From Methanococcus voltae PS (GTDB taxonomy: Archaea > AGJL01 > Methanococci > Methanococcales > Methanococcaceae): 64,000 nucleotides of DNA. Every line of letters starts with the position of its first letter. Positions within the stretch are counted from its first letter, which is position 1. A program made the position numbers and the translations under genes. The stretch lies in NCBI RefSeq assembly GCF_024807035.1, contig NZ_JANUCQ010000002.1, forward strand, positions 62,001 to 126,000, in the 5' to 3' direction. Under the pieces are notes generated by a model, which worked only from the letters and a program-made list of their open reading frames with translations, did no database searches and was not told where the DNA came from. Below are positions 2-23,530 of this stretch, piece by piece.

Positions 2-157
2 ATTATCGGAATTATTGCAATATCTGTTTTAAGTTCAGGTTCTGACCCGACTGCGATTGCATCACAAGTAATGCAACAGATGAACGGTGTAAATACTCAA
101 AATGTAGCTAATGCAACTCAAACAGTTGTACAAAATACTACAATTTTAAAACCATAA
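2..157 (+). CDS. C-terminal 51 residues of a truncated protein with a hydrophobic segment
   Basis: An open frame enters from the left edge and stops with TAA at 155-157. It begins with a hydrophobic stretch (IIGIIAISVLSSG) and continues into a polar tail rich in Gln, Asn and Thr. The start lies outside the window, so the family cannot be judged. A small membrane-anchored virion protein is possible from the context, since the next genes resemble those behind the large 1,224-residue gene, but this is a guess. Confidence 0.6.
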   Translation: MIGIIAISVLSSGSDPTAIASQVMQQMNGVNTQNVANATQTVVQNTTILKP

Positions 158-195: not shown

Positions 196-1044
196 TTGGC
201 ACGAACTAAAAAAGGTAAATCTAATGAAGAATATATTCCAGATAAAGAAGATAAAAAGAAACTATTAAGGATATTTCACAGTATGTCTGTAGATAATCAA
301 CACAAGGATTTGCTAACCACTAAAAGGGTTATTAAAAAAGGAAATAGAAAACAGCTTGATGAATGGAAAAATAATCCGAAAGCGTATGATATTAGGGGGG
401 TCGATACACAACCGCCCGAACTAATGAATAAAAGATTATTTTATACGCATGAATATGTTGGTAAACCAAAACTTAAAGCAATGCCTGAGCCTGAAAAAGA
501 TAAACTTGGAGCGTTTAGGGCCAAACGAGGAATTCGTAATCCTGGTATTGTATATATTAACAAAGATATTAATAATAAGGTAGAATTTGAAAAAACTTTT
601 GCTCATGAATTAGGGCATGCGTATGATAGGAATGTAAAATCAGATTATGAAGAAGACGGGAATTACAAGTTTGGAGAAATAGGGTATAAACACCTAAAAA
701 AAAGAAAAAAGTTAAGAAACGAAGTAATTAATATAACTAAAAAAATATCTCCATATACTCAACAAAATAATCCGAAAGCGGAAATTAGGGTAAAAGAAAA
801 ACTGTATAGAACTAAAAATAAAGAAATGTTTGCAGATTGGTTCAGTGCATTATTAATTGATAAAAATAAAGTTAAAAAAGGTAAATCTTTTTATAATATG
901 TTTAAAAATCAAGAAAAAGATTTTATTAAAGGATTAAAGGAAGTGGATAAAGAAGTTACGAGTAAATATATTAAAACCCCCTCAAAAGTTAAATCAAAAG
1001 GTAAAAATAGTAAAAATAAGAGAAATAAAACTAAGAAAAAATGA
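196..1044 (+). CDS. HExxH zincin-type metallopeptidase, copy A
   Basis: Translation starts at TTG 196 behind GGTGAT (187-192); the paralog at 9745 has the same start context. The protein has 282 residues. HELGH at residues 137-141 gives two zinc ligands and the catalytic Glu, and Glu210 in KEMFADWF is the likely third ligand. The first 70 residues are nearly identical in both copies, the middle differs, and the C-terminus is a Lys-rich tail (about residues 264-282). There is no signal peptide or membrane segment. Three related small genes follow directly, and the whole module recurs at 9745-11852. A toxin, a virion-maturation protease or a host-modifying protease are all possible; the substrate is unknown. 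Confidence 0.8.
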   Translation: MARTKKGKSNEEYIPDKEDKKKLLRIFHSMSVDNQHKDLLTTKRVIKKGNRKQLDEWKNNPKAYDIRGVDTQPPELMNKRLFYTHEYVGKPKLKAMPEPEKDKLGAFRAKRGIRNPGIVYINKDINNKVEFEKTFAHELGHAYDRNVKSDYEEDGNYKFGEIGYKHLKKRKKLRNEVINITKKISPYTQQNNPKAEIRVKEKLYRTKNKEMFADWFSALLIDKNKVKKGKSFYNMFKNQEKDFIKGLKEVDKEVTSKYIKTPSKVKSKGKNSKNKRNKTKKK

Positions 1045-2359: not shown

Positions 2360-2761
2360 ATGATTAATTTCATTTTATACATTTTATTATTTTTTAATAT
2401 TATTTTAATGTCTTATTGTGATTTAAAAAATAATTATGTATATCTTATTCAATTATTAATTAATTTTATATTATCTATTGCAATATCTTGGAATTCTAAT
2501 TTTATAGAATTGGGTTTGATTACTTTTTTACATTCATTGATATTATGCTTTGTTTTATCTCAATTCATGGGAAAAGGCGACTATTTTTATTTTATATCTA
2601 TTTCTTTTATATTTAATCCATTAGCGTTTTATATAATATTAATTACTTCCTTGGTTTCTACTTTATTTGTATTTCTAATTGAAGAGCGTAAAGGCTTCCC
2701 TTTTATCCCTATTGTATGTATTTACACGATAATGCTATTACCTGTAGCCACAATGTTTTAA
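2360..2761 (+). CDS. Prepilin peptidase-like aspartic protease (A24 family)
   Basis: ATG 2360 follows AGGTGT. The 133-residue integral membrane protein has about four hydrophobic segments. Asp21 in YCDLKNNYV and Asp74 in GKGD match the two catalytic aspartates of type IV prepilin peptidases (the DxxxxxIP-like and GxGD motifs), as in archaeal FlaK/EppA/PibD. It is shorter than cellular FlaK and resembles a minimal catalytic core. In the cell such enzymes remove class III signal peptides from pilins and archaellins at the membrane. It sits in an operon with small membrane proteins and the surface protein, so it may process element-encoded virion or pilus subunits. No obvious substrate is visible. 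Confidence 0.78.
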   Translation: MINFILYILLFFNIILMSYCDLKNNYVYLIQLLINFILSIAISWNSNFIELGLITFLHSLILCFVLSQFMGKGDYFYFISISFIFNPLAFYIILITSLVSTLFVFLIEERKGFPFIPIVCIYTIMLLPVATMF

Positions 2762-2773
2762 AATGGTGAAAAA

Positions 2774-3046
2774 ATGAGTGACGGAAAATATATAGTTATT
2801 GCAAAGGGTTTGATAACCTATGCAGTAATGCTTATAGCGTGGGGTTATATGACTTATATCGTTGGAATGGTCGATAATATCATAACTCCTATGACTGCAA
2901 ACGTTCCGCAGATGATGACCTGGCACGGAACGTATATTATGATGTGGAACGCTTTCCCTATCGAATTAGCAGTAATTATTTTAATTTATATGTATAAAAA
3001 AGGAAATTCAAACGAATATGAGAATAATTATCCAAGAGGATGGTAA
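2774..3046 (+). CDS. Small membrane protein, two transmembrane helices
   Basis: ATG 2774 follows GGTGAAAAA 12 bases after the preceding stop, indicating one operon. The 90 residues contain two hydrophobic helices (about 8-32 and 58-73) with a Met- and Thr-rich loop between them. The end overlaps the leader of the exported PKD protein gene. I recognise no family. A virion membrane protein or an assembly factor is plausible from the neighbours. Confidence 0.65.
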   Translation: MSDGKYIVIAKGLITYAVMLIAWGYMTYIVGMVDNIITPMTANVPQMMTWHGTYIMMWNAFPIELAVIILIYMYKKGNSNEYENNYPRGW

Positions 3047-3047
3047 T

Positions 3048-5222
3048 ATGAAACTAAAAATTTTACTATTTTTAACGATAATTTTATTTTCAATTTCGTT
3101 CTGTAATGCAGAACAGTGTTATTATCATTATGATTCAGATAATCAACTTTTAACTTTTAAAGTTCCAGAAATTCCTGCAAATGGTGAAGTTACTTATTAT
3201 GTTAATGAAGATGTAAATTCGGCTAACTATAGTAATCCAAATGAGGTTTATGACTTCTACTGCGATGCTTCTACTTATAACCCAAACGATTGGACAATTG
3301 TAGGAGCTACTGTTTCTGTTGTGAACGATAGGGTACAATTAGCGGTGACCGATTCGGCAGATACATACGATGACGGATATATGTATTATAACAGGGATAT
3401 TAACAGTCTTAGCACCGTGAAAATGTACGGACAACTTAGAAATGGGGGTCAATTTGCATTAGGAAACTATCTTATGGGAGGTACTGACGTTGCTTCTAAT
3501 TCACGTTTCCAATCGGGTGTAGCTACGTATTTTTACACTTATAATGATGCACCAGACGCATATAATATAATAGCAGATGATAATGACCATTACCATGAAA
3601 TTACGATGACTCCTAGCTATAGTATATATACATTAGATTCTGAAAAGAAAACAAGAGAAAAAACATCTACAATGACTGATGAAAAATTATTCTATCGTAA
3701 TTTCCGAACTGGAACTCAATCGTTCAAATGGATGGGCTTACAAAAATACAATGAAAATATTGTAATCTCAAAAAGTTTAGAAAATGGAAAATTAAAAGTT
3801 ACTATTAAAAATAATAACAATTACAACGTTGCAAACTATCAAATAGATTGTAAAATTACAGAATTAAATCCAACAATAAATAGTTTTAATATACCTAATC
3901 AGTATATTGAAACGGATGAAGGATTACAAATTCAAAAAGATAAAGAAGTTATTAATTTAGGGGATTCAGTACAATTTTCGGTAATTTCCAATTATGATAT
4001 AGATAGTTATACTTGGGATTTTGGAGATGGAACGACCGAATCAACCACTACTAACATTATAGCACATACGTATGCTAAATCGGGTGATTATACCGTAGTA
4101 TGTAAAGCTATTTTAACCAACGGTGATGTAAAATATAATAAAATAGATTTTATAGTAGGTACAAAAATATCAAATGCCGAAATTAAATTTTTAGATGAAT
4201 TAACAGGGGGAACTCCAAGTAATTTATCGATAAACGGTGTTTTATTTACTAACAATAATTATTTAGTAAATATATCAAACAATACAAATTATAATGTAAC
4301 TTACCCAGAATATTCAACAATAACTTTTACATCTTCAGATGGATTAATACGGCAAGTTGAAACAACCAATTTATCAAGTTATGAAATATTATTACCGCCT
4401 GCAAATACTTATGTTGTACAATATAATATTATATCATATTCTGATGATAAAATAGAAGTTAAAACAACTGATTTAAAAACAATAAATGTAGGTAATAAAG
4501 ATGTTGTAGCTCACTTAATAAAAGGTAAGACATATAATATTTTTGTAAATGGTAATTTTTATAAACAAATAATTGCAAAAGACCCTGATACAATATATAT
4601 TAATCAAAATGCAAACCAAGAAATTGGAAGTATTTTTGATAATAAATTATCTGAAAGAATTGAGTACAATATTCAACCAAACGGGCAGTACGGGCAGTAT
4701 TTAGTTGTTTTATCAAATAAAGATAAAGCAATAGGTAAAGTTATTGTAGTTACTGAAAAAAATACTGATACATACATTACATATAATGAAATAAACAGCA
4801 CTTTCGCATTAACTCGGGGATATAACGAATTAGATGCTTCAATATATCGTTGTGAAGAAAATTCTGAAATTTTATATGATATATTTGTAAATCAAAATTA
4901 TCAAAATTATGATGTAACAAACTATACTAAATTTCAAATATTAACTAAAAAAATCTATTTTGAATCTTATGAACCGCCTTATTTTACATTTACTTTTTAT
5001 TTAGTTCTATGCTTTTTGATATCTGCAATATTATTTGTAATTTTATCAGCTTCAAGTGGTAATTTGCATTTATCTTTATTGGTATCATCGGTTATATTTG
5101 CAGTAGTTCAGGATATATTTCATATTGGAGCTATTGGTAAAATATCGAGCGGTTTATTCTTATCTATTGCTATATTAGCGTGGGTATGGACAGTTTTTAA
5201 AAGGGGTGCAGAAAATGGCTAA
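3048..5222 (+). CDS. Exported surface protein: DUF2341/LamG-like N-terminus, PKD domain, C-terminal membrane segments
   Basis: I start at ATG 3048 behind GAGGATGGT; it opens a signal peptide (MKLKILLFLTIILF then CNA). The 724-residue protein begins with a segment like the end of DUF2341 domains (FKVPEIPANGEVTYYV, then SNPNEVYDF), followed by a LamG-like beta region. A PKD domain lies at about 307-367 (SYTWDFGDGTTES). Three hydrophobic segments follow from about 646 to 718. This is the layout of a membrane-anchored adhesin or virion spike. Large LamG-like proteins are known in spindle-shaped viruses such as PAV1. The partial gene at 63536 shares the N-terminal module. Role in attachment is inference. 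Confidence 0.78.
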   Translation: MKLKILLFLTIILFSISFCNAEQCYYHYDSDNQLLTFKVPEIPANGEVTYYVNEDVNSANYSNPNEVYDFYCDASTYNPNDWTIVGATVSVVNDRVQLAVTDSADTYDDGYMYYNRDINSLSTVKMYGQLRNGGQFALGNYLMGGTDVASNSRFQSGVATYFYTYNDAPDAYNIIADDNDHYHEITMTPSYSIYTLDSEKKTREKTSTMTDEKLFYRNFRTGTQSFKWMGLQKYNENIVISKSLENGKLKVTIKNNNNYNVANYQIDCKITELNPTINSFNIPNQYIETDEGLQIQKDKEVINLGDSVQFSVISNYDIDSYTWDFGDGTTESTTTNIIAHTYAKSGDYTVVCKAILTNGDVKYNKIDFIVGTKISNAEIKFLDELTGGTPSNLSINGVLFTNNNYLVNISNNTNYNVTYPEYSTITFTSSDGLIRQVETTNLSSYEILLPPANTYVVQYNIISYSDDKIEVKTTDLKTINVGNKDVVAHLIKGKTYNIFVNGNFYKQIIAKDPDTIYINQNANQEIGSIFDNKLSERIEYNIQPNGQYGQYLVVLSNKDKAIGKVIVVTEKNTDTYITYNEINSTFALTRGYNELDASIYRCEENSEILYDIFVNQNYQNYDVTNYTKFQILTKKIYFESYEPPYFTFTFYLVLCFLISAILFVILSASSGNLHLSLLVSSVIFAVVQDIFHIGAIGKISSGLFLSIAILAWVWTVFKRGAENG

Positions 5223-5589
5223 AACACAAGTTTGGAACATTATGGTTTTTATTTTATCTTTGAATATTGCTATTGCATTACTCCCTTCAGTATGTGATTA
5301 CTTCGAAATTCCCATAATTTCTTCAAATATTCCAACTGGAACGGGTGTAATGAGCTTAGGAGCTCTTTCAACGCCTTCCACTATTGGAGATATGGGTTTT
5401 GGTAATTGGTTCTTTGGTGCAACCATCTTGTCATCTTTATTCAATATAATATCTGGAAATTATATGGTTTGGAAATCTTTCGGAATACCATATCCATTTT
5501 CAGAATTATTTTCATTAGTTTGTGGAACTGTAACGTGGAGTACGATGTTCTATGTAATCACTGGTAAAGATATTTTTGGAGGGAGATAA
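5215..5589 (+). CDS. Small polytopic membrane protein
   Basis: ATG 5215 has GGGGTG at 5203-5208 and overlaps the end of the surface-protein gene by 8 bases, so the two are probably translationally coupled. The 124 residues hold about three to four hydrophobic segments separated by short loops. No family is recognised. Tight coupling to a membrane-anchored spike candidate suggests a partner subunit in the virion or cell envelope. Confidence 0.65.
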   Translation: MAKTQVWNIMVFILSLNIAIALLPSVCDYFEIPIISSNIPTGTGVMSLGALSTPSTIGDMGFGNWFFGATILSSLFNIISGNYMVWKSFGIPYPFSELFSLVCGTVTWSTMFYVITGKDIFGGR

Positions 5590-5912
5590 TGGTAAATACA
5601 AGTGTAGTATCATTGGATTTTGAAATATTATCAAATCCAAATATTTTTGAAACTTTAAAATATTTATTAGCTCTTTATCCTGAAACGGTTTCTATTATTT
5701 TATTGGGTGCAAATATTGCGATTTATTTATCTTCAAATAAAAATACGATGATTGTATTTGTCTCCGAATTAATTATGATAACTTTTATAAGTTTTTTTAT
5801 AGGTCTTGATGTCATATTCTCAAAATCAATTTCTACAACGGTTTTCATCGTTAATGGTGTTTTTACACTGATGATGTTAACTGAAACAATAAAAGAGATG
5901 CAAAAACCATAA
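5589..5912 (+). CDS. Small membrane protein, three transmembrane helices
   Basis: ATG 5589 overlaps the previous stop by one base (TAATG), with GGAGGGAG as ribosome binding site. The 107 residues contain three hydrophobic helices (about 36-48, 53-76 and 82-99) and a charged C-terminus. It belongs to the same operon as the surface protein. I recognise no family. Confidence 0.65.
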   Translation: MVNTSVVSLDFEILSNPNIFETLKYLLALYPETVSIILLGANIAIYLSSNKNTMIVFVSELIMITFISFFIGLDVIFSKSISTTVFIVNGVFTLMMLTETIKEMQKP

Positions 5913-5925
5913 ATGAGGTGAAATT

Positions 5926-8900
5926 ATGGCAATATCTTCACGTTCAAATCGTCCTAAAGTAAGAAGAGTAACAAGCAGTAAATCAAGCAGTAAATCAAGC
6001 GGTGGAAGTAGTAAAAAGAGTTCAAGTTCAAAATCTTCAAATAATAAAAGTAAATCAAGTTCCCCAAGTGCAATAAAAAGTGGGGAAACTCATTACGATG
6101 ATAAGGGAAACGCTTATCGTAAAGAAAAAGGTGGAGGGTTTAAAAAAGAAGGGGATAGTTCAGGAAATAGGTACCATAACGTGCCAAATTCCGCAAATGA
6201 TAAAAAGACTAACACAAATAGCAATAATAAACTCAATACACAAAATAAACAAGAGATAGCTAAACCTGATAATTATTATTCAAAAGGTTATGATAAGTAC
6301 ATTGGTAAAGATAAGAGTAAATTAAGCCCCTACATTAAAAATCATTGTGGTTATAAGTATGACGAATCGGGTCGAGTAACTGCAATATACGACCATTCAG
6401 GCAATCAATTAAGTAAACGAAGTATTGCAACTAAAAGCGATAGTTCAGTATATAATAAAGTAGGAAATGTAAATAATTATTCAAGAAGTGAATTAAATGA
6501 CGGGAAAGTAACCATTATCGATAGAAACACAAATTCAAGAATAACATATAATAAAAACGATATAGTTGTTAAAGATGGAAATATATTAGTTAGAAAAAGT
6601 GCAGTTCAACAAAAAGATCCTGATGAAATTCATTATGGGCGAGTGTATTATAACGATGGACATGGTAGTTATAACGCAAAACCTCCAAAGAAAACCAATA
6701 AACAAGCTGAAAGAAATACATATGATATTAATAAAGTTGAAATTCATTCTGGTTCTGATTATGAAGTAGTTTATGATAAAAAAGGGAATTTGATAGGAGT
6801 TTACAATAAAGATAGTATTAAAAGATATAAAACTAATGGGGGAACTACTCGGATAATTTTAGATAAAAATGAAGTTTATTTAAAAGAAAATAAAATTAAT
6901 TTCATTGATAAAAATGGAAATCAACAAGTTGTTAATATTACTAAAAATACAGATAATTCATTTAATATTAATCAAGTTCAAAAGAATGTAATTTCAATAA
7001 CTGAGTTAGGAGTATCTAAAAAGAAATTAGATAATGGTAAAACTGTTTTATACAGTATTAATAACGACGGAGAAATTGATTTTTTAAAAACTGTTGATAC
7101 AACTAAAATAAAAAATGGAAATATAAATATTAATGATTTAAAAGATTTAACTTCAAATGAAAAAGTTATTTTAAAAAATAAAGGGATAACGTATAATATA
7201 CAAGGTAGCGATACACCCGACACTTTTCAAATATCTTGTGACGTTGCAAAGTATGCTAATCCACCTAAGTTTTTACAAACTGAAGAATATAAACCTGAAG
7301 TTGATACTTTAGATTATTATAAAGAGAATATTGGTGTCAATTGGGCCGTAAATGAAATATCTAAGTTGGGCGATAAAGCAGGAGCTAAAGCAACAATATA
7401 TACAACATTACCAATGATTATAGGGGATAACCCAGTAATTACTCAGGCCACCACAGCTATGGGACATTTTGACAACGATATTACAAAAAATCCATTATAT
7501 GAAACTGAACCTATAATATTTGGAAGAAAAGTAACAAGTAATGTAATGGGTGGTATTTCTGATTTCTTCGGGTCAGGATGTACTGTAGTAGGGGTAGAAG
7601 CTACAAAGGGTTTAGTTGGCGATAAAACTTTTGGAAAAGTATCAAATGAATTTGCAACATATACCGTTGATGGGTTATATCACGGCACGGTTACGCCCTA
7701 TGGTAATGCTATGCAAGGGGACTTTTCAACCAAAAATGTTGCAGATATGATGAATTTACCTTTAATGGTTGTTGGTGCAAGAGGTGGTATAAAATCGGGT
7801 GCATCCTTAGGTAAAACAGTGGCTAAAAAGGGAAGCAAAGCATTGAAGAATCCAAAAGCTACTTTAAAAACGGGTAAAAATTATATTAAAAATGAATATA
7901 ATGGTATTATTGATTTTAAAAATACTATAAAAAGTGACTCGTTTAATATAAAAACTAATAATTTTGAGATAACTAAAACTACTTATCCAAAGATACAAAA
8001 CTGGGAAGTTAACGTAAATATTGGAAAAGCAGATGCTTTTTTTGATTTCACTAAAACAGATATTGCTAAAAACATTAATACAAAATTATCTTATGGAGAT
8101 AAGTCCATATCTAACAGATATTTAAATAATCCAAGATACGGTAAAGTTTCAGAAACTACTACTAAAAAGGGTAGCAATTCAAAAAGAACTTCAACACACA
8201 ATATGGTTGACGGTGGAACACTTGATATATTGGAAAAAAATACTAAAAATAGCAAATATGGAAAATATAAATTAGATAATGATATGAATACAGTACACAA
8301 TGAATATTTCAACATATTTGATAACGAAAATAGTTTTAGTGCTACAAGGAATTCATATTATAATAAATATACTAAAAAATGGCACGATGTTAAAAAAATC
8401 GATGGTAGCACAGACTATGGAAGAACTAACTTTTTTGGAGAATATGGTATAGGGAGTAAAGGAACGAAATATAAAAAAGGAGTTACTGCTAAAGATTTAA
8501 ACAATCGAGAATATTCTAACATCTATACTGCAGAATCTCAAAATTTAATGGGTTTAAATGAAATAAAGAATATTGAACCGCTTTCTGAAATTAAAAGCTA
8601 TAAAGATAATTTTATAGTTAGTGATAAACCGCTTTCTGAAATCAAAATAAATGAAATGTCCGACAATACATTTTTTAAGAGTAATACTCTTACTGAAAGA
8701 GAAACTGGTACTGGTCATCGTTCTATATCATTACAAAAGACTAAAAACTTAAAAGAAAATGGTAAATTTAGCAGGTCGACACATGAAATAAAAGTAAATG
8801 ATAATTATATGATAGATTATGTCGGTGGTGAAGCCATCAATATTATGGAATTTCAGGAAAGATTTGGTTTAAAAGGAAAAGGTCCAAAAGTACCGAGTAA

Positions 8901-9600
8901 ATATAAAACAAATCCCTCCAAAAGCAAAAGAAAAAATTTGAGAGATAAAACAGATTTTTCTATCTTTGATGATATAGAAGCTTCTAAAAAAGGAAATAGT
9001 AAAGTAGTTAGTAAAAATAGTAGAAAAACGACTAAAAAAGGAAATAATAAGAAAAAATCAAGTACAAAAACTTCAAAGCAAGATGTAACTACGAATAAAG
9101 CAGGAACTAAAAATCAGAATAATAATAATAATAAGAATCAGAATAATAATAAGAATCAGAATAATAATAAGAATCAGAATAATAATAAGAATCAGAATAA
9201 TAATAAGAATCAGAATAAAGTTGGAATATTTACAGAAAATAATTTAAAAACTAATTCAGAAACTGGCACTCTCACAAATAATCCATTTAAGCAAGATATT
9301 ACAAATAATTTAAAAGTAGGGGAAATTCTAGGTACAAAAACCATATCATTGCAAAAAACAAAAAGTAAACAAAAGAGTTTATTATTTTCAGGTTTTGGAG
9401 CTACTGAGTTGACAGCACCTTACCCCACAATCCCAGAACCTGAACCACCTAAACCAATCCCCCCAAGACCTAAGCCAAAAAAAGTTAAAAAAGGGAAGAA
9501 AAGAAAAGGAAGCGATTCACCAATGGGAAATAATTTATTTTGGGGAAATACAAAGAAAAACTCTAAAAAATGGGAGTTTGATTTAAAAGACATATTATAA
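5926..9600 (+). CDS. Giant low-complexity protein, 1,224 residues, probable virion or effector protein
   Basis: ATG 5926 follows GAGGTGAAATT. The first 60 residues are almost only Ser, Lys, Arg and Asn. A region rich in Lys, Asn, Tyr and Asp repeats runs to about residue 470 (repeated YDKKGN/IYNKD-like units). A more hydrophobic, Gly/Ala-rich segment follows at about 480-640. A long hydrophilic region comes next, then an Asn/Gln/Lys minisatellite (about 1063-1097), a Pro-rich stretch (PEPEPPKPIPPRPKPKK) and a basic C-terminus. No catalytic motif was found. The position between membrane/spike genes and the second metallopeptidase module suggests a structural protein or a polymorphic effector; neither can be proven here. 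Confidence 0.7.
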   Translation: MAISSRSNRPKVRRVTSSKSSSKSSGGSSKKSSSSKSSNNKSKSSSPSAIKSGETHYDDKGNAYRKEKGGGFKKEGDSSGNRYHNVPNSANDKKTNTNSNNKLNTQNKQEIAKPDNYYSKGYDKYIGKDKSKLSPYIKNHCGYKYDESGRVTAIYDHSGNQLSKRSIATKSDSSVYNKVGNVNNYSRSELNDGKVTIIDRNTNSRITYNKNDIVVKDGNILVRKSAVQQKDPDEIHYGRVYYNDGHGSYNAKPPKKTNKQAERNTYDINKVEIHSGSDYEVVYDKKGNLIGVYNKDSIKRYKTNGGTTRIILDKNEVYLKENKINFIDKNGNQQVVNITKNTDNSFNINQVQKNVISITELGVSKKKLDNGKTVLYSINNDGEIDFLKTVDTTKIKNGNININDLKDLTSNEKVILKNKGITYNIQGSDTPDTFQISCDVAKYANPPKFLQTEEYKPEVDTLDYYKENIGVNWAVNEISKLGDKAGAKATIYTTLPMIIGDNPVITQATTAMGHFDNDITKNPLYETEPIIFGRKVTSNVMGGISDFFGSGCTVVGVEATKGLVGDKTFGKVSNEFATYTVDGLYHGTVTPYGNAMQGDFSTKNVADMMNLPLMVVGARGGIKSGASLGKTVAKKGSKALKNPKATLKTGKNYIKNEYNGIIDFKNTIKSDSFNIKTNNFEITKTTYPKIQNWEVNVNIGKADAFFDFTKTDIAKNINTKLSYGDKSISNRYLNNPRYGKVSETTTKKGSNSKRTSTHNMVDGGTLDILEKNTKNSKYGKYKLDNDMNTVHNEYFNIFDNENSFSATRNSYYNKYTKKWHDVKKIDGSTDYGRTNFFGEYGIGSKGTKYKKGVTAKDLNNREYSNIYTAESQNLMGLNEIKNIEPLSEIKSYKDNFIVSDKPLSEIKINEMSDNTFFKSNTLTERETGTGHRSISLQKTKNLKENGKFSRSTHEIKVNDNYMIDYVGGEAINIMEFQERFGLKGKGPKVPSKYKTNPSKSKRKNLRDKTDFSIFDDIEASKKGNSKVVSKNSRKTTKKGNNKKKSSTKTSKQDVTTNKAGTKNQNNNNNKNQNNNKNQNNNKNQNNNKNQNNNKNQNKVGIFTENNLKTNSETGTLTNNPFKQDITNNLKVGEILGTKTISLQKTKSKQKSLLFSGFGATELTAPYPTIPEPEPPKPIPPRPKPKKVKKGKKRKGSDSPMGNNLFWGNTKKNSKKWEFDLKDIL
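9112..9216 (+). repeat. In-frame 18-base minisatellite
   Basis: About five tandem copies of an 18-base unit encode Asn-Gln-Asn-Asn-Asn-Lys inside the 1,224-residue protein. Copies are almost perfect, so the number of units is likely to vary between strains by slippage without breaking the frame. Confidence 0.9.
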
Positions 9601-9650: not shown

Positions 9651-9722
9651 ATGGAAATAGTTCAGATTATAACTTTTATTGTAATTGGAAGCATTACAAG
9701 CACTTTATTTTTATTTTATTAA
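9651..9722 (+). CDS. Possible 23-residue membrane micropeptide
   Basis: ATG 9651 follows AGGTGA at 9641-9646 with normal spacing. The product MEIVQIITFIVIGSITSTLF plus three residues is one hydrophobic helix. Its stop lies just upstream of the point where the second metallopeptidase module begins to match the first. The open frame is short, so it may be chance, but the ribosome binding site is as good as those of neighbouring genes. Confidence 0.4.
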   Translation: MEIVQIITFIVIGSITSTLFLFY

Positions 9723-9744
9723 TTTATTATCAAACGGTGATTAC

Positions 9745-10560
9745 TTGGCACGAACTAAAAAAACTAAATCTAATGAAGAATATACTCCGAATAAAGAAGA
9801 TAAAAAGAAATTATTAAGGATATTTCACAGTATGCCCCGAGATGTACAACATAAAGATTTACTAACCACTAAAAGAGTTATTAAAAAAGGAAATAAAAAA
9901 CAGCTTGATGAATGGAAAAATAATCCGAAAGCATATGATATTAGGGGAATAGATACACAACCTGAGGAGTTATTAAAAAGAAGATTAGATTATGTTACAA
10001 ACTATGCAGGTAATCCAAAAATAGATATACAGGAACATAAAGGGATAGAAGGTGAATATGAATATTACCCCGGCGGTGGTAAAAGTAAAAAAGTACCAAA
10101 ACAAGGTATAATTAGAATAAATAATAAAGGAAGGAGTGAAAAAGAAGTTGACATACTGCTTAGCCATGAATTGGGTCATGCGTTCCATAGAAACGTTAAA
10201 GGTAATTTAGATGAAGATTACTATAATTTTAAAAAGATGCAACCCAACCCGCATAATAAAAAACAATTATATAATGAAATATTAGCAATAGATAATAGAA
10301 TAGTACCATATAATAAGAAAAAAGATAAAGATTTTACACAATATCGTAACCAAGATAAAGAATTATTTGCAAACTTTTTTAGAGGGTTACTAACAAATAA
10401 AAATACTATAAAGAAAGGAAAGTCTTTTTACAATATATTTAAAAATGAAAATAAAGATTTTATGAATGGTTTAAAAGGTGTGGATAAAGAAGTTTTAAAG
10501 AAATATACTAAGGAGCCACTCAAAAAGAAGAGAAAAACTAAATCAAAAAAGAAAAAGTGA
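9745..10560 (+). CDS. HExxH zincin-type metallopeptidase, copy B
   Basis: TTG 9745 is chosen because the sequence from the GGTGAT ribosome binding site through the first 70 residues matches copy A at 196; an upstream TTG at 9685 would only read through the micropeptide region. The protein has 271 residues, HELGH at 141-145 and a likely third ligand Glu207 in KELFANFF. Between about residues 80 and 140 it differs strongly from copy A, including a Gly- and Tyr-rich insertion. The Lys-rich tail is kept. Three paralogs and one truncated gene follow, as in module A. Conserved ends with a variable middle suggest diversification of specificity. Confidence 0.8.
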   Translation: MARTKKTKSNEEYTPNKEDKKKLLRIFHSMPRDVQHKDLLTTKRVIKKGNKKQLDEWKNNPKAYDIRGIDTQPEELLKRRLDYVTNYAGNPKIDIQEHKGIEGEYEYYPGGGKSKKVPKQGIIRINNKGRSEKEVDILLSHELGHAFHRNVKGNLDEDYYNFKKMQPNPHNKKQLYNEILAIDNRIVPYNKKKDKDFTQYRNQDKELFANFFRGLLTNKNTIKKGKSFYNIFKNENKDFMNGLKGVDKEVLKKYTKEPLKKKRKTKSKKKK

Positions 10561-10564
10561 TATT

Positions 10565-10867
10565 ATGAAGAAAAAACCAGTTAGTAGCTCTAATTATAGA
10601 CACGAATTTAGTATTGATTATAAAATACAAACTAACGTAAAAGAAGATAGGATTAAAATATCTAATGGAAAAAAGTACAGGGTATATTCCAGGGTGAGTA
10701 AAATAGAGAAGGTACTTAAAAAAGGTTTTAAATTATATATTGGAGTATTTAGAGTATCTTATAATAAAGAAAGTGGAAAATACGAATTATACGATACGGA
10801 AGAGAAAAATATATACAAGGAATTAGATGATATCGAAGAGTATTGGAGAATGTTCCAAATAATGTAA
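10565..10867 (+). CDS. Small paralog-family protein 4
   Basis: ATG 10565 is 4 bases after the metallopeptidase stop, with GTGATATT as binding site, so the two are coupled. The 100 residues carry the family core: FSIDYKIQTNVKED, GKKYRVY, KVLKKGFKL and a VSYNKESGKYEL strand. The N-terminal extension of paralogs 1-3 is absent. It is about 85% identical to paralog 6 over the first 60 residues. Function unknown. Confidence 0.72.
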   Translation: MKKKPVSSSNYRHEFSIDYKIQTNVKEDRIKISNGKKYRVYSRVSKIEKVLKKGFKLYIGVFRVSYNKESGKYELYDTEEKNIYKELDDIEEYWRMFQIM

Positions 10868-10901
10868 TAATAGGGGAAATATAAAAAATGAGGGATATTT
10901 T

Positions 10902-11345
10902 ATGGATGAGGAAAAAGTAGAATATGACACGAGAAAGTTTTTAGAAGAACTTAAAAAGGATCCTGGTGAAGATGTAGTGAAAGACGTAAAAGAAAAAGAA
11001 AGTTGCGAAGTCACATGGAAATTTGGACAAAAGTATGTTGAAATAAGTTACAAAGACCCTCTGGACCACTATAAAGATATACCCTATCCTCCAAAATGTT
11101 ATATTGAATATGAAGTAAAAACTGGCGTAAAAGAAAATTATACTATGATAGAAAGCGGAAAAAAGTATAAAGTATATAGTTCATTGCCAAAGATAAGACG
11201 AGTATTGAAAAAGGGTTTTATATTAAAGATGCCCGTGGGAAAAATAAAATATAACTCAAATAGTGAAGAATATGAGGTAGGAAATAGTAAAGATGAGATA
11301 TATATGAGACAAGACAGTATTTATAAAATTTGGCATTTGGATTAA
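10902..11345 (+). CDS. Small paralog-family protein 5, longer N-terminus
   Basis: ATG 10902 follows the array leader AAAATGAGGGATATTTT. The 147 residues start like paralog 1 (MDEEKVEYD), then carry an extra segment of about 50 residues containing several Lys, Glu and aromatic residues. The core follows (CYIEYEVKTGVKEN, GKKYKVY, RVLKKGFIL). The longer N-terminus makes this the most divergent member. Function unknown. Confidence 0.72.
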   Translation: MDEEKVEYDTRKFLEELKKDPGEDVVKDVKEKESCEVTWKFGQKYVEISYKDPLDHYKDIPYPPKCYIEYEVKTGVKENYTMIESGKKYKVYSSLPKIRRVLKKGFILKMPVGKIKYNSNSEEYEVGNSKDEIYMRQDSIYKIWHLD

Positions 11346-11375
11346 AAATAGATATACTGGAAAATAAGGGATTTT

Positions 11376-11678
11376 ATGAAGAAAAAACCATTTAGTAGCT
11401 CCAATTATAGGCACGAATTTAGTATTGATTATAAAATACAAACTAACGTAAAAGAAGACAGGATTGAAATATCTGATGGAAAAAAGTACCGAGTATATTC
11501 CAGGGTGAGTAAAATAGAGAAGGTACTTAAAAAAGGTTTTAAATTAGAAGCAGAACCTTTGATATTATCATACAATAAAGAAACTGGAAAATATGAATTA
11601 TATAATACCGAATACAAAGAAGTAGTTGAACAGATGGATAGATTAATAGAATACTGGGAAAATCGACCAATAATGTAA
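11376..11678 (+). CDS. Small paralog-family protein 6
   Basis: ATG 11376 follows AAGGGATTTT. The 100 residues repeat paralog 4 almost exactly to the KVLKKGFKL motif and then diverge (LEAEPLILSYNKETGKYELY). A conserved first half with a variable second half is the pattern seen across the array. Function unknown. Confidence 0.72.
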   Translation: MKKKPFSSSNYRHEFSIDYKIQTNVKEDRIEISDGKKYRVYSRVSKIEKVLKKGFKLEAEPLILSYNKETGKYELYNTEYKEVVEQMDRLIEYWENRPIM

Positions 11679-12086: not shown

Positions 12087-12635
12087 ATGATTATTGGTTA
12101 TGCAAGAGTATCAACCAAGGAACAGAATATTGAAAAGTATATTGAGGAACTTAAAAAAGCAGGTTGTGAAAAAATCTACTTTGAAAAGATTTCAGGGGCT
12201 AAATCACAACGTCCAGAGTTTCAAAAGATGATGGAAACTATTCGGAAGAATGATATTGTTGTAGTTTCAGATTTAACTCGTTTATCTCGCAGTATGAAAG
12301 ATTTAATAAATACTATGGAATTATTTAAATCTAAGGGCGTTCAATTAAAAAGTATAAAAGAAAGCTGGATTAATACAACAACTGCACAGGGTGAGTTAAT
12401 GTTTAATATTTTTTCCGCTTTGGCAGAATTTGAACGTAAATTAATAAAAGAAAGAACTAAAAACGGTTTAGATATTGCACGTTCACGGGGTCGAGTTGGT
12501 GGTCGTCCCAAAGTTGATAATAATAAGTTAGAAATGGCTATTAAATTATATAATTCTGGTGAATGTACATTAAAAGAAATAAAAGAGATTACTGGAATTA
12601 GTAAGACTACTTTGTATAGATATTTGGAAAAATAA
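12087..12635 (+). CDS. Serine recombinase, resolvase/invertase family
   Basis: ATG 12087 follows GGTGATATT. The 182 residues show the complete small serine recombinase fold: catalytic Ser9 in YARVSTKEQN, the DLTRLSRS arginine motif, the AEFERKLIKERTKNG helix leading to DNA, and a C-terminal helix-turn-helix (LKEIKEITGISKTTLYRYLE). Its length is normal for resolvases and invertases. It would resolve element dimers at a res-like site or invert a segment. Its position right behind the paralog array allows a role in array variation. Substrate sites are inferred, not proven. Confidence 0.92.
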   Translation: MIIGYARVSTKEQNIEKYIEELKKAGCEKIYFEKISGAKSQRPEFQKMMETIRKNDIVVVSDLTRLSRSMKDLINTMELFKSKGVQLKSIKESWINTTTAQGELMFNIFSALAEFERKLIKERTKNGLDIARSRGRVGGRPKVDNNKLEMAIKLYNSGECTLKEIKEITGISKTTLYRYLEK

Positions 12636-18574: not shown

Positions 18575-18636
18575 TTAATTAAAATTTACAAAAATTAACA
18601 ATTTATTAATATATTTTTTTAATCTTGGGAGATAGT

Positions 18637-19590
18637 ATGAAAGAGGTAAAACGATTAATTGCATTCAATAGAAACGAACAGTATAATATCGAGGAATACG
18701 TGGAAAGATACAAATATGAACGTGAACTTGATGGAATTGCTAAAAGCACACTTCAAATCGATGTAACTAAACTAAAAGTATTCCTTAGGTATTGTAACTT
18801 AACATTAAAACGAAAACCTGAAAATCTAACAAAATTAGATTTTGGAAAGTTCTTTATGTATTTATCAAATGAACGAAAGATTGCTAAAAATACAGAAATA
18901 AGGTATTATAACCTTTTAGTGATGTTTTACAAAGTTATGAAGTTTGATAACTTTGAAGAATTTGAAACAGAGTGTAAAGAACGTAAACGGTTTAAAAAGT
19001 TCGATAAGAAGCATTACGATTATGTAACTACTCAAGATATGGACTTAATATTCCAAAAACTCTATAATAAAAATAATTACACCCAGGATAGGGATGCAGT
19101 TCTTCTAAGAACTTTATGGGATACTGGATGCAGAGTTTCAGAAATTCTCAATAGTAGACTGAAAGATTACGATAGTAAAAATGGAGTAATTGTAATAACT
19201 AAATCCAAGAACTACACCGAAAGAAGGGTAATATTAGCAAATGATACCAAAGAAGCTTTAAACTATATTATTACAAAGAATAGAAATAAAAATGATAATG
19301 ATTACTTATTTCAGAAGCTTAACGGTGAGCAAATAAATAGAAATGCAATATATCGAGTTTTTAACGCTTGTGTTAAAGAATTAAAAGCAGAAGGTAAACT
19401 TGCTAAAAATAGAAGAATTGTTTTACATTCCATAAGACATGGTTGTTGTGTAAATCTACTAACGAAAGGGGTTAATTTAGATGAAGTAAGTAGGTATATG
19501 GGTCATAATAGGGTAGAAACGACTATGATTTACGCACACAATCGAGAAAGGACAAATGAAAGCTTAAATAATATAAAAAATATTCTATAG
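18637..19590 (+). CDS. Tyrosine recombinase (integrase), XerC/D-like
   Basis: ATG 18637 follows GGGAGA; an upstream TTG at 18625 has no binding site. The 317 residues have an N-terminal SAM-like core-binding domain (about 15-105) and a catalytic domain with Arg in DTGCRVSEI, Lys in ITKSKN, HSIRH, MGHNRVETT and the nucleophile in MIYAH. It would catalyse recombination between the element and the 3' end of the tRNA-Ser gene at 23391. Because the gene is intact in the integrated state, it stays expressible for excision. It is followed after 7 bases by the replication gene. Confidence 0.93.
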   Translation: MKEVKRLIAFNRNEQYNIEEYVERYKYERELDGIAKSTLQIDVTKLKVFLRYCNLTLKRKPENLTKLDFGKFFMYLSNERKIAKNTEIRYYNLLVMFYKVMKFDNFEEFETECKERKRFKKFDKKHYDYVTTQDMDLIFQKLYNKNNYTQDRDAVLLRTLWDTGCRVSEILNSRLKDYDSKNGVIVITKSKNYTERRVILANDTKEALNYIITKNRNKNDNDYLFQKLNGEQINRNAIYRVFNACVKELKAEGKLAKNRRIVLHSIRHGCCVNLLTKGVNLDEVSRYMGHNRVETTMIYAHNRERTNESLNNIKNIL

Positions 19591-19597
19591 GGGTAAT

Positions 19598-22597
19598 ATG
19601 GGTAAAAAAGAAAGAAAAATAGAATTAAGCAGTACAGTTAATGTATTCTTCAGGTCTGTGTTTGATGTAGCATCTAAAAATATAGATGAAGATAAGTTTA
19701 TAGAACTTAGAGCGTTTAATAGCAATGGTAAACCAGTTCAAAAATATTTTAAATATCCTAATGAATTACCAAAGTTTTTAGCGGAAAGTGTTACACTTAA
19801 TAATTTAATGAGTGTATATTATGGTATTGGATTGAGAAAAGAACATAAAGGTACTAAGGACGCTACATTTGATAATATATCCATAATACCTATTGATATA
19901 GATGTTTTAAAGGATGTTTTAGGCTACGGAGACCCTTCAAAAGATGAAAAGTTTTTAGAAAAAGATATAACTAAAATAACAGATTTAGAAGCTCACAAGT
20001 TAGTTGAAGATTATTATAAAAATTTAAATTTACCCCTGAAGCCAACTTTCTCATTCTTTACAGGTCACGGAATACAATTATATTATTTATTAGATTATCC
20101 AATAGGAGAAAAAGGATTATTAGAGTTTAAAAAACTCATTGAATTTGACAATAAAAATAATAAAGTTGTAAATGGAGATTCTAACATTTATGATTTAGCA
20201 AGAGTTTTAAGAATCCCATTTAGCGATAATAAGAAATTTATCACTAAAAAAGGACGAGTTTTAGAAATAAACGATGTTAAATATGATTATAATGCTGTTA
20301 TTAATCAGTTTAAGAATTATGTAAATTATAAAGATAAGATTTTAAAGGAAGACTACGAAGAAAAGGATTTTAAATCTATCGAGGAAATAAACTGGGATTA
20401 TGTACCACCTTGTGTTAAAAAAGCTTTGGAGCTTAGAAAAAAAGGAGAAGCTAACCGAGATATACAATTATTTTTAAGAGCTTTCTTTATGAAGGTCTTC
20501 AATCAAGATGAAGGAGAAGACGTTTCAAAGACTTTAAGCATATTTAAAGAGTACTCAAATAACTTTAATGAAGAATTGACCTTAAGAAGCTTAGAAGAGT
20601 GGTTCAATAGTAGACGAGCTCCAACAAATTGTATGAATTGTCCAATACAAGAATGTAGTTCTTGCTGGTTAGCAAATAAGAAAAAAGGTAATCCTCTTAA
20701 AGCATATTATATTAAAAAAATAAATACTGAAGAAAAGAGCGTCGATGAATTAGAAGCTTTAATGTTGGGAAACGTTGGTAAGTTAGAAATGGAATGCTTC
20801 AGAGGAATTTACAATATTAACAAAGAAACTGAGAGAAGAACCAATAGTGATGGTGAAGAAATAGTAAGAACAAGGTCATTAGCTTACTTTACAACACCGA
20901 AGTTAGTAAATAAACAATTCTTTGATTTACATGATGTACTGAAGGGAAAAGAGTTGGAAATAAATAAGGAATTTATAGACATTTTTGACGATTACGCATT
21001 TTATGATTTTGTTGAAGTTGCAAAAAGTGGAAATGGTGGACATCAAAAATATCTTTATGAGTACGATTTAATATATAAGTGGATTCTTAAAAAGTTTGAA
21101 GTTGACGAATGTAAGAAAGTAACTAAAGCATGGGGATATTATAATAAAGATACAATAATACTGCCACCAGAATGGGAACTACCAAGAGATACACCACAAG
21201 TATATTATAAAAAAGACTTCAAAGAGTTATTTAAAATTAAATACACAGATGATGACGTTAAAGACATAATAAAACATTTGAAATGTTATCTACAAGATGA
21301 TGTTTCAAAATGGATTTTAGAATACACTATGGCTTCAGTATTTAGATATTATTTCATATCCAACAAAAGGTTAGATATGTTCCCCAATCTAATTGTGACA
21401 GGTCTACACGCACAAGGTAAATCTGCAAGAGTTAGATTATTATTTAGTAAATTATTATTAAATTCAGAAAATCAATATGGGGAAACAGTTGTGCAAGGGT
21501 CACCGATAAGATTAGAAGGTGAACAGTGGATAAATGTACCAATGCTATACGACGAATTAAAAGAAATTCCTAAGAGATTGGAAGGAATACTGAAGAGAAT
21601 AGGGACGGGTGTATCAGACATTGGTCATCGATATAAAAGAGATGGGAGTTGGAACGGGACATCGATAATTAGACCAATTATGATAACGACAAATGACTTG
21701 TCAATAAAAGATATAGCATTGATATCAAGATGTATCATAATCGATATAGATAACATAAAAACAGTGAATACAGTTGATGAATATAGATATCTTGATGACA
21801 AAATACATATTTTAGGTAGATGGATTTATGATAATTTAGGAATGATTGGCGAGCAAATCGAGAATTTAGAATTTAGCGGAGATAGGGAAAAAGCTAAAGA
21901 AAATGTAATTAAAATAGGTAGGGCAATTTTAGGAGCAATATTTGCATACTTTGAAGAATCCTACGTACCAAGTTCAGACTATCCGGTTGAAGACTATTCA
22001 GCAGTTAACACCCCCGATAAAACTATTAGAAAATGTATTATAGAAAGTGTAAGAAGAACTGTAAGAATAACTTTAGAAGGAAGAACTTATGATATTTATG
22101 ATTTAATATATGAAGCAAATCCTGGAATTGAAGAAAGTTTATATAAAATGCTAAGGTCACATGGGTTAGATGTGAAAATTCAAGATGATATGGCTTATCT
22201 AATCGTGACAAAAGATGCTTATGATATTTTAGATATCGATAAATACAACGTTGCTGAAGTTGGTAAACTAAAAGCCTATTGGGAGTATAAAACTACTGCA
22301 ATAAGAGGACGGGGAAAAGTAAAAGCAATATGGATGCCCCTACAGAAAATAGAGAAGAAAAATGAATATACTGAAGATATTAAAATAAATTACAATGACA
22401 ATACTGCAGTAGTATATGAAACAATTTTAGAAAATGTAGATGAAAATGACAATGTGAAAATAGATATTATTATAGAAAAAGTAAAAGAATATATTCAGAT
22501 TGAAGATAATGAAGTATTACTTGCAATAAAGAACCTGAACTATAAAAGTTATATCTCACAACCAAGAGTTGGAGAAGTTCACGTGTGCATCAAATAA
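19598..22597 (+). CDS. Replication protein: archaeo-eukaryotic primase plus superfamily 3-like helicase
   Basis: ATG 19598 follows AGGGGTAAT. The first 220 residues show primase-polymerase motifs: IIPIDIDV (Asp100, Asp102 for metals), FFTGHGIQLYYLL at about 153-165 and DLARVLRIPFS at about 199-209. A Cys cluster (CMNCPIQECSSCW, about 345-357) may bind zinc or an Fe-S centre. The C-terminal half carries Walker A (GLHAQGKS, about 602-609), Walker B (MLYDELKE, about 648) and a sensor-like IMITTND. The last 150 residues look like a winged-helix end. Such fusions start replication of archaeal plasmids and viruses. The iteron cluster lies directly behind it. Confidence 0.88.
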   Translation: MGKKERKIELSSTVNVFFRSVFDVASKNIDEDKFIELRAFNSNGKPVQKYFKYPNELPKFLAESVTLNNLMSVYYGIGLRKEHKGTKDATFDNISIIPIDIDVLKDVLGYGDPSKDEKFLEKDITKITDLEAHKLVEDYYKNLNLPLKPTFSFFTGHGIQLYYLLDYPIGEKGLLEFKKLIEFDNKNNKVVNGDSNIYDLARVLRIPFSDNKKFITKKGRVLEINDVKYDYNAVINQFKNYVNYKDKILKEDYEEKDFKSIEEINWDYVPPCVKKALELRKKGEANRDIQLFLRAFFMKVFNQDEGEDVSKTLSIFKEYSNNFNEELTLRSLEEWFNSRRAPTNCMNCPIQECSSCWLANKKKGNPLKAYYIKKINTEEKSVDELEALMLGNVGKLEMECFRGIYNINKETERRTNSDGEEIVRTRSLAYFTTPKLVNKQFFDLHDVLKGKELEINKEFIDIFDDYAFYDFVEVAKSGNGGHQKYLYEYDLIYKWILKKFEVDECKKVTKAWGYYNKDTIILPPEWELPRDTPQVYYKKDFKELFKIKYTDDDVKDIIKHLKCYLQDDVSKWILEYTMASVFRYYFISNKRLDMFPNLIVTGLHAQGKSARVRLLFSKLLLNSENQYGETVVQGSPIRLEGEQWINVPMLYDELKEIPKRLEGILKRIGTGVSDIGHRYKRDGSWNGTSIIRPIMITTNDLSIKDIALISRCIIIDIDNIKTVNTVDEYRYLDDKIHILGRWIYDNLGMIGEQIENLEFSGDREKAKENVIKIGRAILGAIFAYFEESYVPSSDYPVEDYSAVNTPDKTIRKCIIESVRRTVRITLEGRTYDIYDLIYEANPGIEESLYKMLRSHGLDVKIQDDMAYLIVTKDAYDILDIDKYNVAEVGKLKAYWEYKTTAIRGRGKVKAIWMPLQKIEKKNEYTEDIKINYNDNTAVVYETILENVDENDNVKIDIIIEKVKEYIQIEDNEVLLAIKNLNYKSYISQPRVGEVHVCIK

Positions 22598-23390
22598 TTA
22601 TTTATTTTTTTTAAAAAAATAATATATCCATACATCTGAATGTGTTCGATATAATAGAGTACTTTTAGAGAATATACTGAAGTTCCAAGTTACCTCAAGT
22701 TACCATAAAATAGCTAAAAAAATATTTTTTTCAAAAAGTCAAAAATTCCAGGTTACCAGGTTACCATTTATACTATATTATTATATTATTAATATATTAA
22801 TTATATCTCTATTATATGTCCTTATTTTGGTAACCTGAAAGGTAACCTGAAAGGTAACTTACCAAGTTACCTTTTTACTTTTCGTCATACTAATCGTTAA
22901 TTATTAACATTTATTATTATTTCTGTTAATAATATTATTATAGGAGTATGCAAGAAAAGTGGTAACTTCGCCAAGTTACCTTTCAGGTTACCATTTTATT
23001 TTTTATTTTACGCTTATTTTTATGATTACTCTTCTATATGCCTTCCTTTTTGAGTATTACTTTTTTGGTAACTTGGTAACCTGAGATTTTATACACACAA
23101 ACATTTTGCAGATGCAAAAATTACACTTTTGAAGTAAATTCTCCAGCCAATATTACAATATATTATTTTTTCTTTTAAGACATAAAAGTGAGAACTTCGT
23201 CTTAATCCCGTTGCACTGTCGTGAACTTTTCCGAAAACGAAAATTATAAAATGCCTTTTAAATCCAATAATAACCTTAATAAATGCTTGATTCTTATAAG
23301 AAAAACGGAATAGTTGCAAAAATTATCCCGTTAATTTCTTAAAAATCGTAAAAATTTAAACTTCAAAAAATCCTTTAAAACAGAATATAC
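22598..23390. other. Long noncoding stretch between replication gene and tRNA
   Basis: No gene is supported here. The left and middle hold the iteron cluster; bases 23090-23390 hold no repeats or good start signals, and the open frames there are short and lack binding sites. The right end is the tRNA 3' end, the expected attachment site. Confidence 0.6.
22686..23082. repeat. Iteron cluster, probable replication origin
   Basis: The 8-base motif GGTAACYT or its complement occurs 13 times: 22686, 22696, 22750, 22758, 22829, 22841, 22853, 22864, 22961, 22973, 22985, 23067 and 23075. Copies come as direct pairs spaced 8, 10 or 12 bases apart and as inverted pairs around centres near 22862 and 22971. 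A very AT-rich stretch (22770-22820) lies between the groups. Iterons next to a Rep gene are a standard plasmid or virus origin design. The unit is absent elsewhere in the part of the element I scanned. Confidence 0.75.
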
Positions 23391-23474
23391 GCGGAGACCG
23401 CGATTTGAACGCGGGTTGAGCAGAGCTCAACGGGATTAGCAGTCCCGCGCCGTACCAGGCTGGGCCATCTCCGC
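23391..23474 (-). tRNA. tRNA-Ser (anticodon GCU), integration site of the left element
   Basis: The minus strand folds into a full class II tRNA. The acceptor stem is GCGGAGA with TCTCCGC, and the D arm contains GGCCCAGCCTGGTACGGC. The anticodon arm is CGGGA-CTGCTAA-TCCCG with anticodon GCT. A long variable arm TTGAGCTCTGCTCAA and a T arm CCGCG-TTCAAAT-CGCGG complete it. The 3' CCA is not encoded. The 3' end faces the element, which restores the gene after integration. It is also much richer in GC than its surroundings, as usual for RNA genes in AT-rich archaea. Confidence 0.97.
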
Positions 23475-23530
23475 ACAGTATAATTAATAGTTGACTCCAA
23501 TTAGTCACAAATATAGGATGGTGATTCTAC

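Follow-up and report, generated by a model that had tools for sequence, protein, structure and literature searches.

A probable minimal A24-type (prepilin) peptidase in a virus-like integrated element of Methanococcus voltae, and its candidate substrates

A virus-like element integrated at a tRNA-Ser gene

The stretch of DNA analysed here, referred to throughout as the window, comprises 64,000 nucleotides of the Methanococcus voltae PS genome (G000:C2:62001-126000) and begins inside an integrated element. The complete element is 28.8 kb long and is bounded by an exact 56-bp repeat of the end of a tRNA-Ser gene (Table 1). The original prediction had described an operon of virion-like genes belonging to an element that continues to the left of base 1, and both points agree with the completed sequence: about 5.4 kb more of the element was recovered, reaching G000:C2:56623, and its gene content is of the kind described. 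In its left part the element encodes a zinc-finger-like protein, two small proteins, a packaging-type ATPase, a capsid candidate, and two more small proteins. These are followed by a membrane protein of 416-417 aa, a variable cassette, the A24 protein, a 90-aa protein, and a surface protein with a PKD domain, then by proteins of 127, 107, and 1224 aa, with an integrase and a PolpTN2-like replication protein further to the right. The element thus has the integrase, the tRNA target with direct repeat, and the packaging-type ATPase by which a virus-like element is recognised, and it is well established that the A24 gene belongs to such an element, with a spindle-virus-like gene set.

Table 1 Features of the integrated element. 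Positions are those of the window unless a contig or locus prefix is given.
Feature	Position	Strand	Remarks
Left copy of the 56-bp direct repeat	L003:14623-14678		5,378 bases left of base 1
Two-helix major-capsid-protein candidate, 120 aa	L003:17619-17981 = C2:59619-59981		About 2 kb left of base 1
C-terminus of the 416-417-aa membrane protein	2..157	+	Start in L003:18904; kept in the G006 sister element; shorter homologue in the second element
HELGH metallopeptidase-like protein	196..1044	+	Variable cassette 5' of the A24 gene
Three tandem paralogous ORFs, 127-132 aa	1041..2276	+	Variable cassette; absent from this place in G006
Minimal A24 (prepilin-type) aspartic peptidase gene, probable	2360..2761	+	133 aa, D21 and D74
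90-aa two-helix membrane protein	2774..3046	+	12 bases 3' of the A24 gene; second candidate substrate
Surface protein	3018..5222	+	Sec-type signal, PKD domain, C-terminal helices
127-aa membrane protein	5206..5589	+	Conserved in five elements of the genus
107-aa membrane protein	5589..5912	+	Similar position and size in related elements
1224-aa large element protein	5926..9600	+	Counterparts in related elements
Tyrosine integrase	18625..19590	+	
999-aa replication protein	19598..22597	+	Weak PriL-like match; presumably of PolpTN2/A3-VLP type
Right copy of the 56-bp direct repeat	23387..23442		End of tRNA-Ser
tRNA-Ser (gct)	23389..23475	-	Integration target

The packaging-type ATPase (430 aa) is related to those of the pTN2-type Thermococcus plasmids pTN2, pIRI48, and pP12-1 (31-34%). 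However, pTN2 showed no A24, and its annotated genes include no obvious capsid candidate, whereas the window element has both. A PolpTN2-like replication protein has been reported for M. voltae A3-VLP (PMC3973330), and it is by that description that we liken the window element to it. Thaumarchaeal integrative-conjugative elements also carry a prepilin peptidase on mobile DNA (PMC6563490), but there the enzyme travels with pilins, FlaI/PilT-type ATPases, and TadC; in the 28.8-kb element, where small ORFs were partly scanned against libraries, no pilin, FlaI-type ATPase, or TadC/FlaJ platform was recognised.

The A24 protein resembles the core of EppA and FlaK

The A24 reading frame is intact, running for 133 codons from an ATG at 2360 to a TAA ending at 2761, with a ribosome-binding-like AGGTG a few bases upstream. 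Its product consists almost entirely of membrane helices. One aspartate, D21, lies in the motif CDLKNN and the other, D74, in GKGD (G71-K-G-D74); D21, G71, D74, and P114 are invariant among 28 aligned A24 proteins. P114 is part of a PF-P motif in the last helix, which in EppA and FlaK stands only behind long extra segments, so the window protein looks like a complete core without the insert.

The best sequence neighbour of the window protein is EppA (arCOG02300), which has the same catalytic motifs and C-terminal PF-P helix. However, EppA is host-encoded and about 340 aa long, with nine helices (some of them extra to the core), a cytosolic part, and a requirement for Gln at +1, whereas the window protein has 133 aa and is encoded by the element. 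FlaK/PibD (3S0X) is likewise built on a core with an aspartate in helix 1 and GxGD in helix 4, but is about 230 aa long, and the window protein lacks the soluble domain that FlaK has between helices 5 and 6.

Pfam PF01478 matches residues 9-103 of the window protein with E=7.4e-5 and 23.6 bits, which is below the curated cut-off of 26.5. Among the minimal A24 proteins of other elements described below (G001, G005, G006, and G015 denote the other genomes), that of G015 scores 19.2 bits (E 0.0017) and the second-element A24s are unmatched. To avoid circularity, an independent profile was made from 23 host FlaK/EppA sequences from related genomes only. This profile matches the window protein at E=1e-7 (database size 1) and the A24 proteins of G006, G005, and the second element at 6e-9 to 1e-7. 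The four take ranks 1-4 against 307 background ORFs, and 5,000 shuffles of minimal A24 proteins gave nothing better than E=1.6e-4. The profile did not recover the G015 protein, which came up instead through its similarity to the second-element A24 (41% across the aligned region, E=1.8e-6). In addition, hhalign gave the window and G006 pair a family probability of 94.6%. The window protein scores 14 bits against the NCBIfam EppA equivalog cut-off of 450, and in a tree of A24 cores, which has very long branches, the minimal forms are neither shown to be monophyletic nor rejected as such.

An AlphaFold2 model based on the 28-sequence alignment (pLDDT 83, pTM 0.75) has six helices, at residues 2-20, 25-45, 49-66, 72-84, 87-108, and 115-132. 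It supersedes a shallow two-sequence model that was uninformative (pLDDT 50). For the structural side of the original prediction the outcome was divided: in the model D21 lies at the end of helix 1 or directly behind it and D74 close to where helix 4 begins, the positions expected of the A24 catalytic pair, but no solved A24 structure was among the 12 weak matches that Foldseek returned from the PDB, where neither of the two models gave a useful match. The alignment profile does reach FlaK 3S0X by sequence, a partly circular result because the profile includes FlaK sequences. With no solved A24 found by Foldseek, the claim of an A24 fold rests on sequence, topology, and this profile match.

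We consider it highly probable that the gene product is an A24-type aspartic protease. The reading frame, both aspartates, and the profile scores bear out the earlier proposal of such an enzyme of 133 residues with Asp21 and Asp74. The enzyme family is a known one, found here in a new biological context, and the system is not categorically new. To our knowledge, a virus-encoded minimal prepilin peptidase would rank among the smallest natural A24 cores, and a minimal core of this kind would be useful for work on structure and mechanism.

A Foldseek search of BFVD with the A24 model returned two unnamed viral proteins of 138-141 aa, A5Y2D8 and A0A5Q2W8A6, which match it over the full length with TM scores of 0.65-0.71 and probabilities of 0.99-1.0 but weak E-values of 0.2-0.5. 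Judging from the modelled folds, these may be further viral A24-like proteins.

Minimal A24 proteins recur in diverged elements

Minimal A24 proteins of 128-133 aa were found in five elements that represent three divergent lineages and two genera. The lineages consist of the window protein and that of G006 (93% identity), those of a second element in the M. voltae genome and of G005 (95%), and that of G015. Between lineages, identity to the window protein falls to 19-33%, and both catalytic aspartates and the GxGD glycines are retained in all five.

In G006, the A24 gene occupies the same place as in the window, and the variable cassette is swapped for other genes. The second element of M. voltae is divergent and lies immediately to the left of the window element (L003:1-13000 and L057). 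Its packaging-type ATPase differs from that of the window element, and its own A24, of 128 aa, is encoded at another position, where the gene does not adjoin the partner genes seen in the window. This copy rules out a reading that we had considered, namely that A24 is an accessory gene missing from the second element. In G015, which belongs to another genus, the gene for a 132-aa A24 is followed by two genes of the kinds that stand downstream of it in the window; the order of A24, 80-90-aa gene, and surface-protein gene is therefore common to the window, G006, and G015, with an overlap of 4 bases between the A24 gene and the 80-aa gene in G015.

A search of the related element in G001 found no A24. 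Host A24 enzymes are present in all of these genomes, with two each, of FlaK and EppA size, in G000, G001, G005, and G006. Recurrence in three lineages beside these host enzymes indicates that A24 is a conserved gene of the elements, and its retention in elements so diverged suggests a dedicated role. None of four A24 queries found an A24 in 50,697 phage and archaeal-virus records, and a pattern search of viral and genome contigs confirmed no relatives.

Candidate substrates within the element

The original prediction supposed that a pilin-type substrate might lie to the left of base 1. It does not: the completed left end holds the packaging-type ATPase and the capsid candidate, and neither a classical pilin nor a strict class III motif (the motif as used in our scans was taken from general knowledge) was found in the completed window element. 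The likely substrate is therefore the capsid protein or a small membrane protein. Thus the idea of an element that uses its own prepilin peptidase on its own pilin-like subunits holds as far as ownership of the enzyme is concerned, but the target is likelier to be a capsid or small membrane protein than a pilin.

The two-helix capsid candidates are 104-145 aa long. The link between the capsid candidate and SSV VP1 is weak (hhalign probability 34%). A class-III-like site, VSRG↓EIS (VSKG↓ELA in G005), precedes the first helix of the second-element capsid candidate, which is alone among the 10 membrane proteins of that element that were checked in having the strict motif at this place. In the G001 element, which is without A24, the capsid candidate is again alone, among five proteins, in having the strict motif, here NKG↓QSV, a site of the EppA type. 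In these two related lineages, the capsid site is thus R/K-G↓E in elements that encode an A24 and K-G↓Q in the one that lacks it. In M. maripaludis, FlaK processes archaellins only and EppA pilins only, with Gln at +1 being essential for the latter (PMC4390842).

The site of the window capsid candidate, AKCDG↓WVQ, is non-canonical, and the G015 capsid candidate has no class III site match. Among shuffled sequences, about 9-14% had the strict motif close to helix 1, and 25% did for one short-leader VP1, so single matches, which shuffles produce about one time in ten, are weak. In the host background the motif was present in none of nine proteins, a small number. The pairing of site and enzyme, read from the sequences of few lineages, is suggestive.

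Proposed role and alternative explanations

We hypothesize, with confidence that falls a little short of even, that the A24 protein is a virus-encoded leader peptidase that acts on capsid or small membrane proteins of the same element. It would be a class III leader peptidase reduced to its six-helix catalytic core and located in the host membrane, with the predicted catalytic pair D21 and D74 on the cytoplasmic side. In this position it could cut the short, hydrophilic leader from the N-terminus of two-helix membrane proteins of the element, in the first place probably the capsid candidate and possibly also the adjoining 80-90-aa protein. The trimmed proteins would then assemble into a particle, which may be of the spindle type and contain lipid. 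The element would need an enzyme of its own because host FlaK takes only archaellins and EppA requires Gln at +1. Distant relatives of the element also keep a minimal A24, probably to trim small coat or membrane proteins of their own.

It is conceivable, if unlikely, that the enzyme processes mainly the 80-90-aa downstream protein, or another minor membrane protein, instead of the capsid protein. The A24 and 80-90-aa genes adjoin in the window, G006, and G015, overlapping in the last, and two divergent neighbours have K-[GA]↓L at an aligned position (AKG↓LITY in the window, LKA↓LAGT in G015) that is missing from homologues not adjoining an A24 gene. However, the KG of the window 90-aa protein is situated inside a hydrophobic stretch and not after a hydrophilic leader, so helix 1 of this protein is predicted to begin before it. 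Moreover, the second element has an A24, yet its 80-90-aa homologue is without the site, and only two lineages support this protein as the substrate.

We think it improbable that the A24-like protein is inactive or has been repurposed, for instance as a structural or chaperone component of the particle. Its score below the Pfam cut-off, its much reduced length, and the missing fold match to a solved A24 are what such a history might leave behind, but the aspartates and GxGD glycines have been kept in every one of the minimal proteins despite the low identity elsewhere.

More improbable still is an action on host pilins or archaellins that would alter appendages and thereby adsorption, superinfection, or motility. 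The nearest family of the window protein is indeed host EppA/FlaK, a host pilin with the site KKG↓QLSLEF is encoded near eppA, and Sulfolobus spindle viruses depend on host pilins (PMC7217056). However, the host has both peptidases already, so that an extra one adds no obvious function, and the A24 gene sits within a virion-type operon, the two having been conserved together in three lineages. Finally, that the A24 resemblance is a coincidence of hydrophobic composition is hardly credible, because although the protein is short and very hydrophobic and its Pfam E-value modest, composition-matched shuffles score three orders of magnitude worse, and the motifs are invariant, the PF-P last helix is present, and several independent diverged copies exist.

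Relation to VP1 of fuselloviruses

The preferred reading, a leader peptidase acting on the element's own coat or membrane proteins, can be set beside the maturation of fusellovirus VP1. The capsid protein of SSV1 (Fuselloviridae) has two helices and a [KR][GA]↓E leader site, and its processing has been published, but no A24 was found when we searched the SSV1 genome. The VP1 precursor is cut before E66 (KG↓E66) by an 'unknown protease', and infectivity is lost when the five residues preceding the site are deleted (PMC5748691). The SSV1 sequence at the cut is PKLTKG↓EATNIG, and [KR][GA]↓E stands directly before helix 1 in all 12 fusellovirus VP1 proteins examined (L058:12567-12998 for SSV1, and L100-L110), behind leaders that range from about 10 to 70 aa. 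We take [KR][GA]↓E of VP1 to be a form of the Sulfolobus class III (PibD) site.

Since SSV1 is without an A24, VP1 would have to be processed by an enzyme of the host, plausibly PibD. No SSV9.2 is obtained from a pibD mutant of S. islandicus, but infection requires pilins as well (PMC7217056), and the result therefore does not decide how VP1 is processed. In the literature searched, we found no paper linking prepilin peptidases with the processing of spindle-virus capsid proteins.

A wider and more speculative possibility, which we put forward tentatively, is that the capsid proteins of spindle viruses are class III preproteins, for which fuselloviruses would borrow PibD, a methanococcal relative EppA (KG↓Q), and other methanococcal elements would bring a minimal A24 with its own specificity. 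If true, this would identify the SSV1 VP1 protease, and spindle-virus assembly would generally include a prepilin-processing step. The matching VP1 sites make the old question of which protease matures SSV1 VP1 a testable one.

The capsid protein of His1 (L111:7341-7562) has a 7-residue acidic leader, MVEIDDG↓VEMAVGIF, before its first helix. This arrangement is similar to that of class III preproteins in sequence but unproven as such.

Variable modules and the surface protein

Genes for HELGH metallopeptidase-like proteins, each followed by one or more paralogous small ORFs (about 98-147 aa), occur at two places in the window element (196-2276 and 9685-11678) and at one in the second element (L057:3237-4498). 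A serine recombinase gene lies near such modules (window 12087-12635). The arrangement looks like a toxin/immunity-like or cassette module that spreads within the elements. At the cassette site 5' of A24 in G006, the metallopeptidase cassette is replaced by a gene for a ClpP-like protease (L021:9367-9879, minus strand, Pfam E=2e-12) together with genes for a 77-aa basic protein and a 157-aa membrane protein. Overall identity between the PKD surface protein and its G006 counterpart is 75%, but part of the N-terminal half has strongly diverged, the pattern expected of a receptor-binding protein or adhesin that is diversifying.
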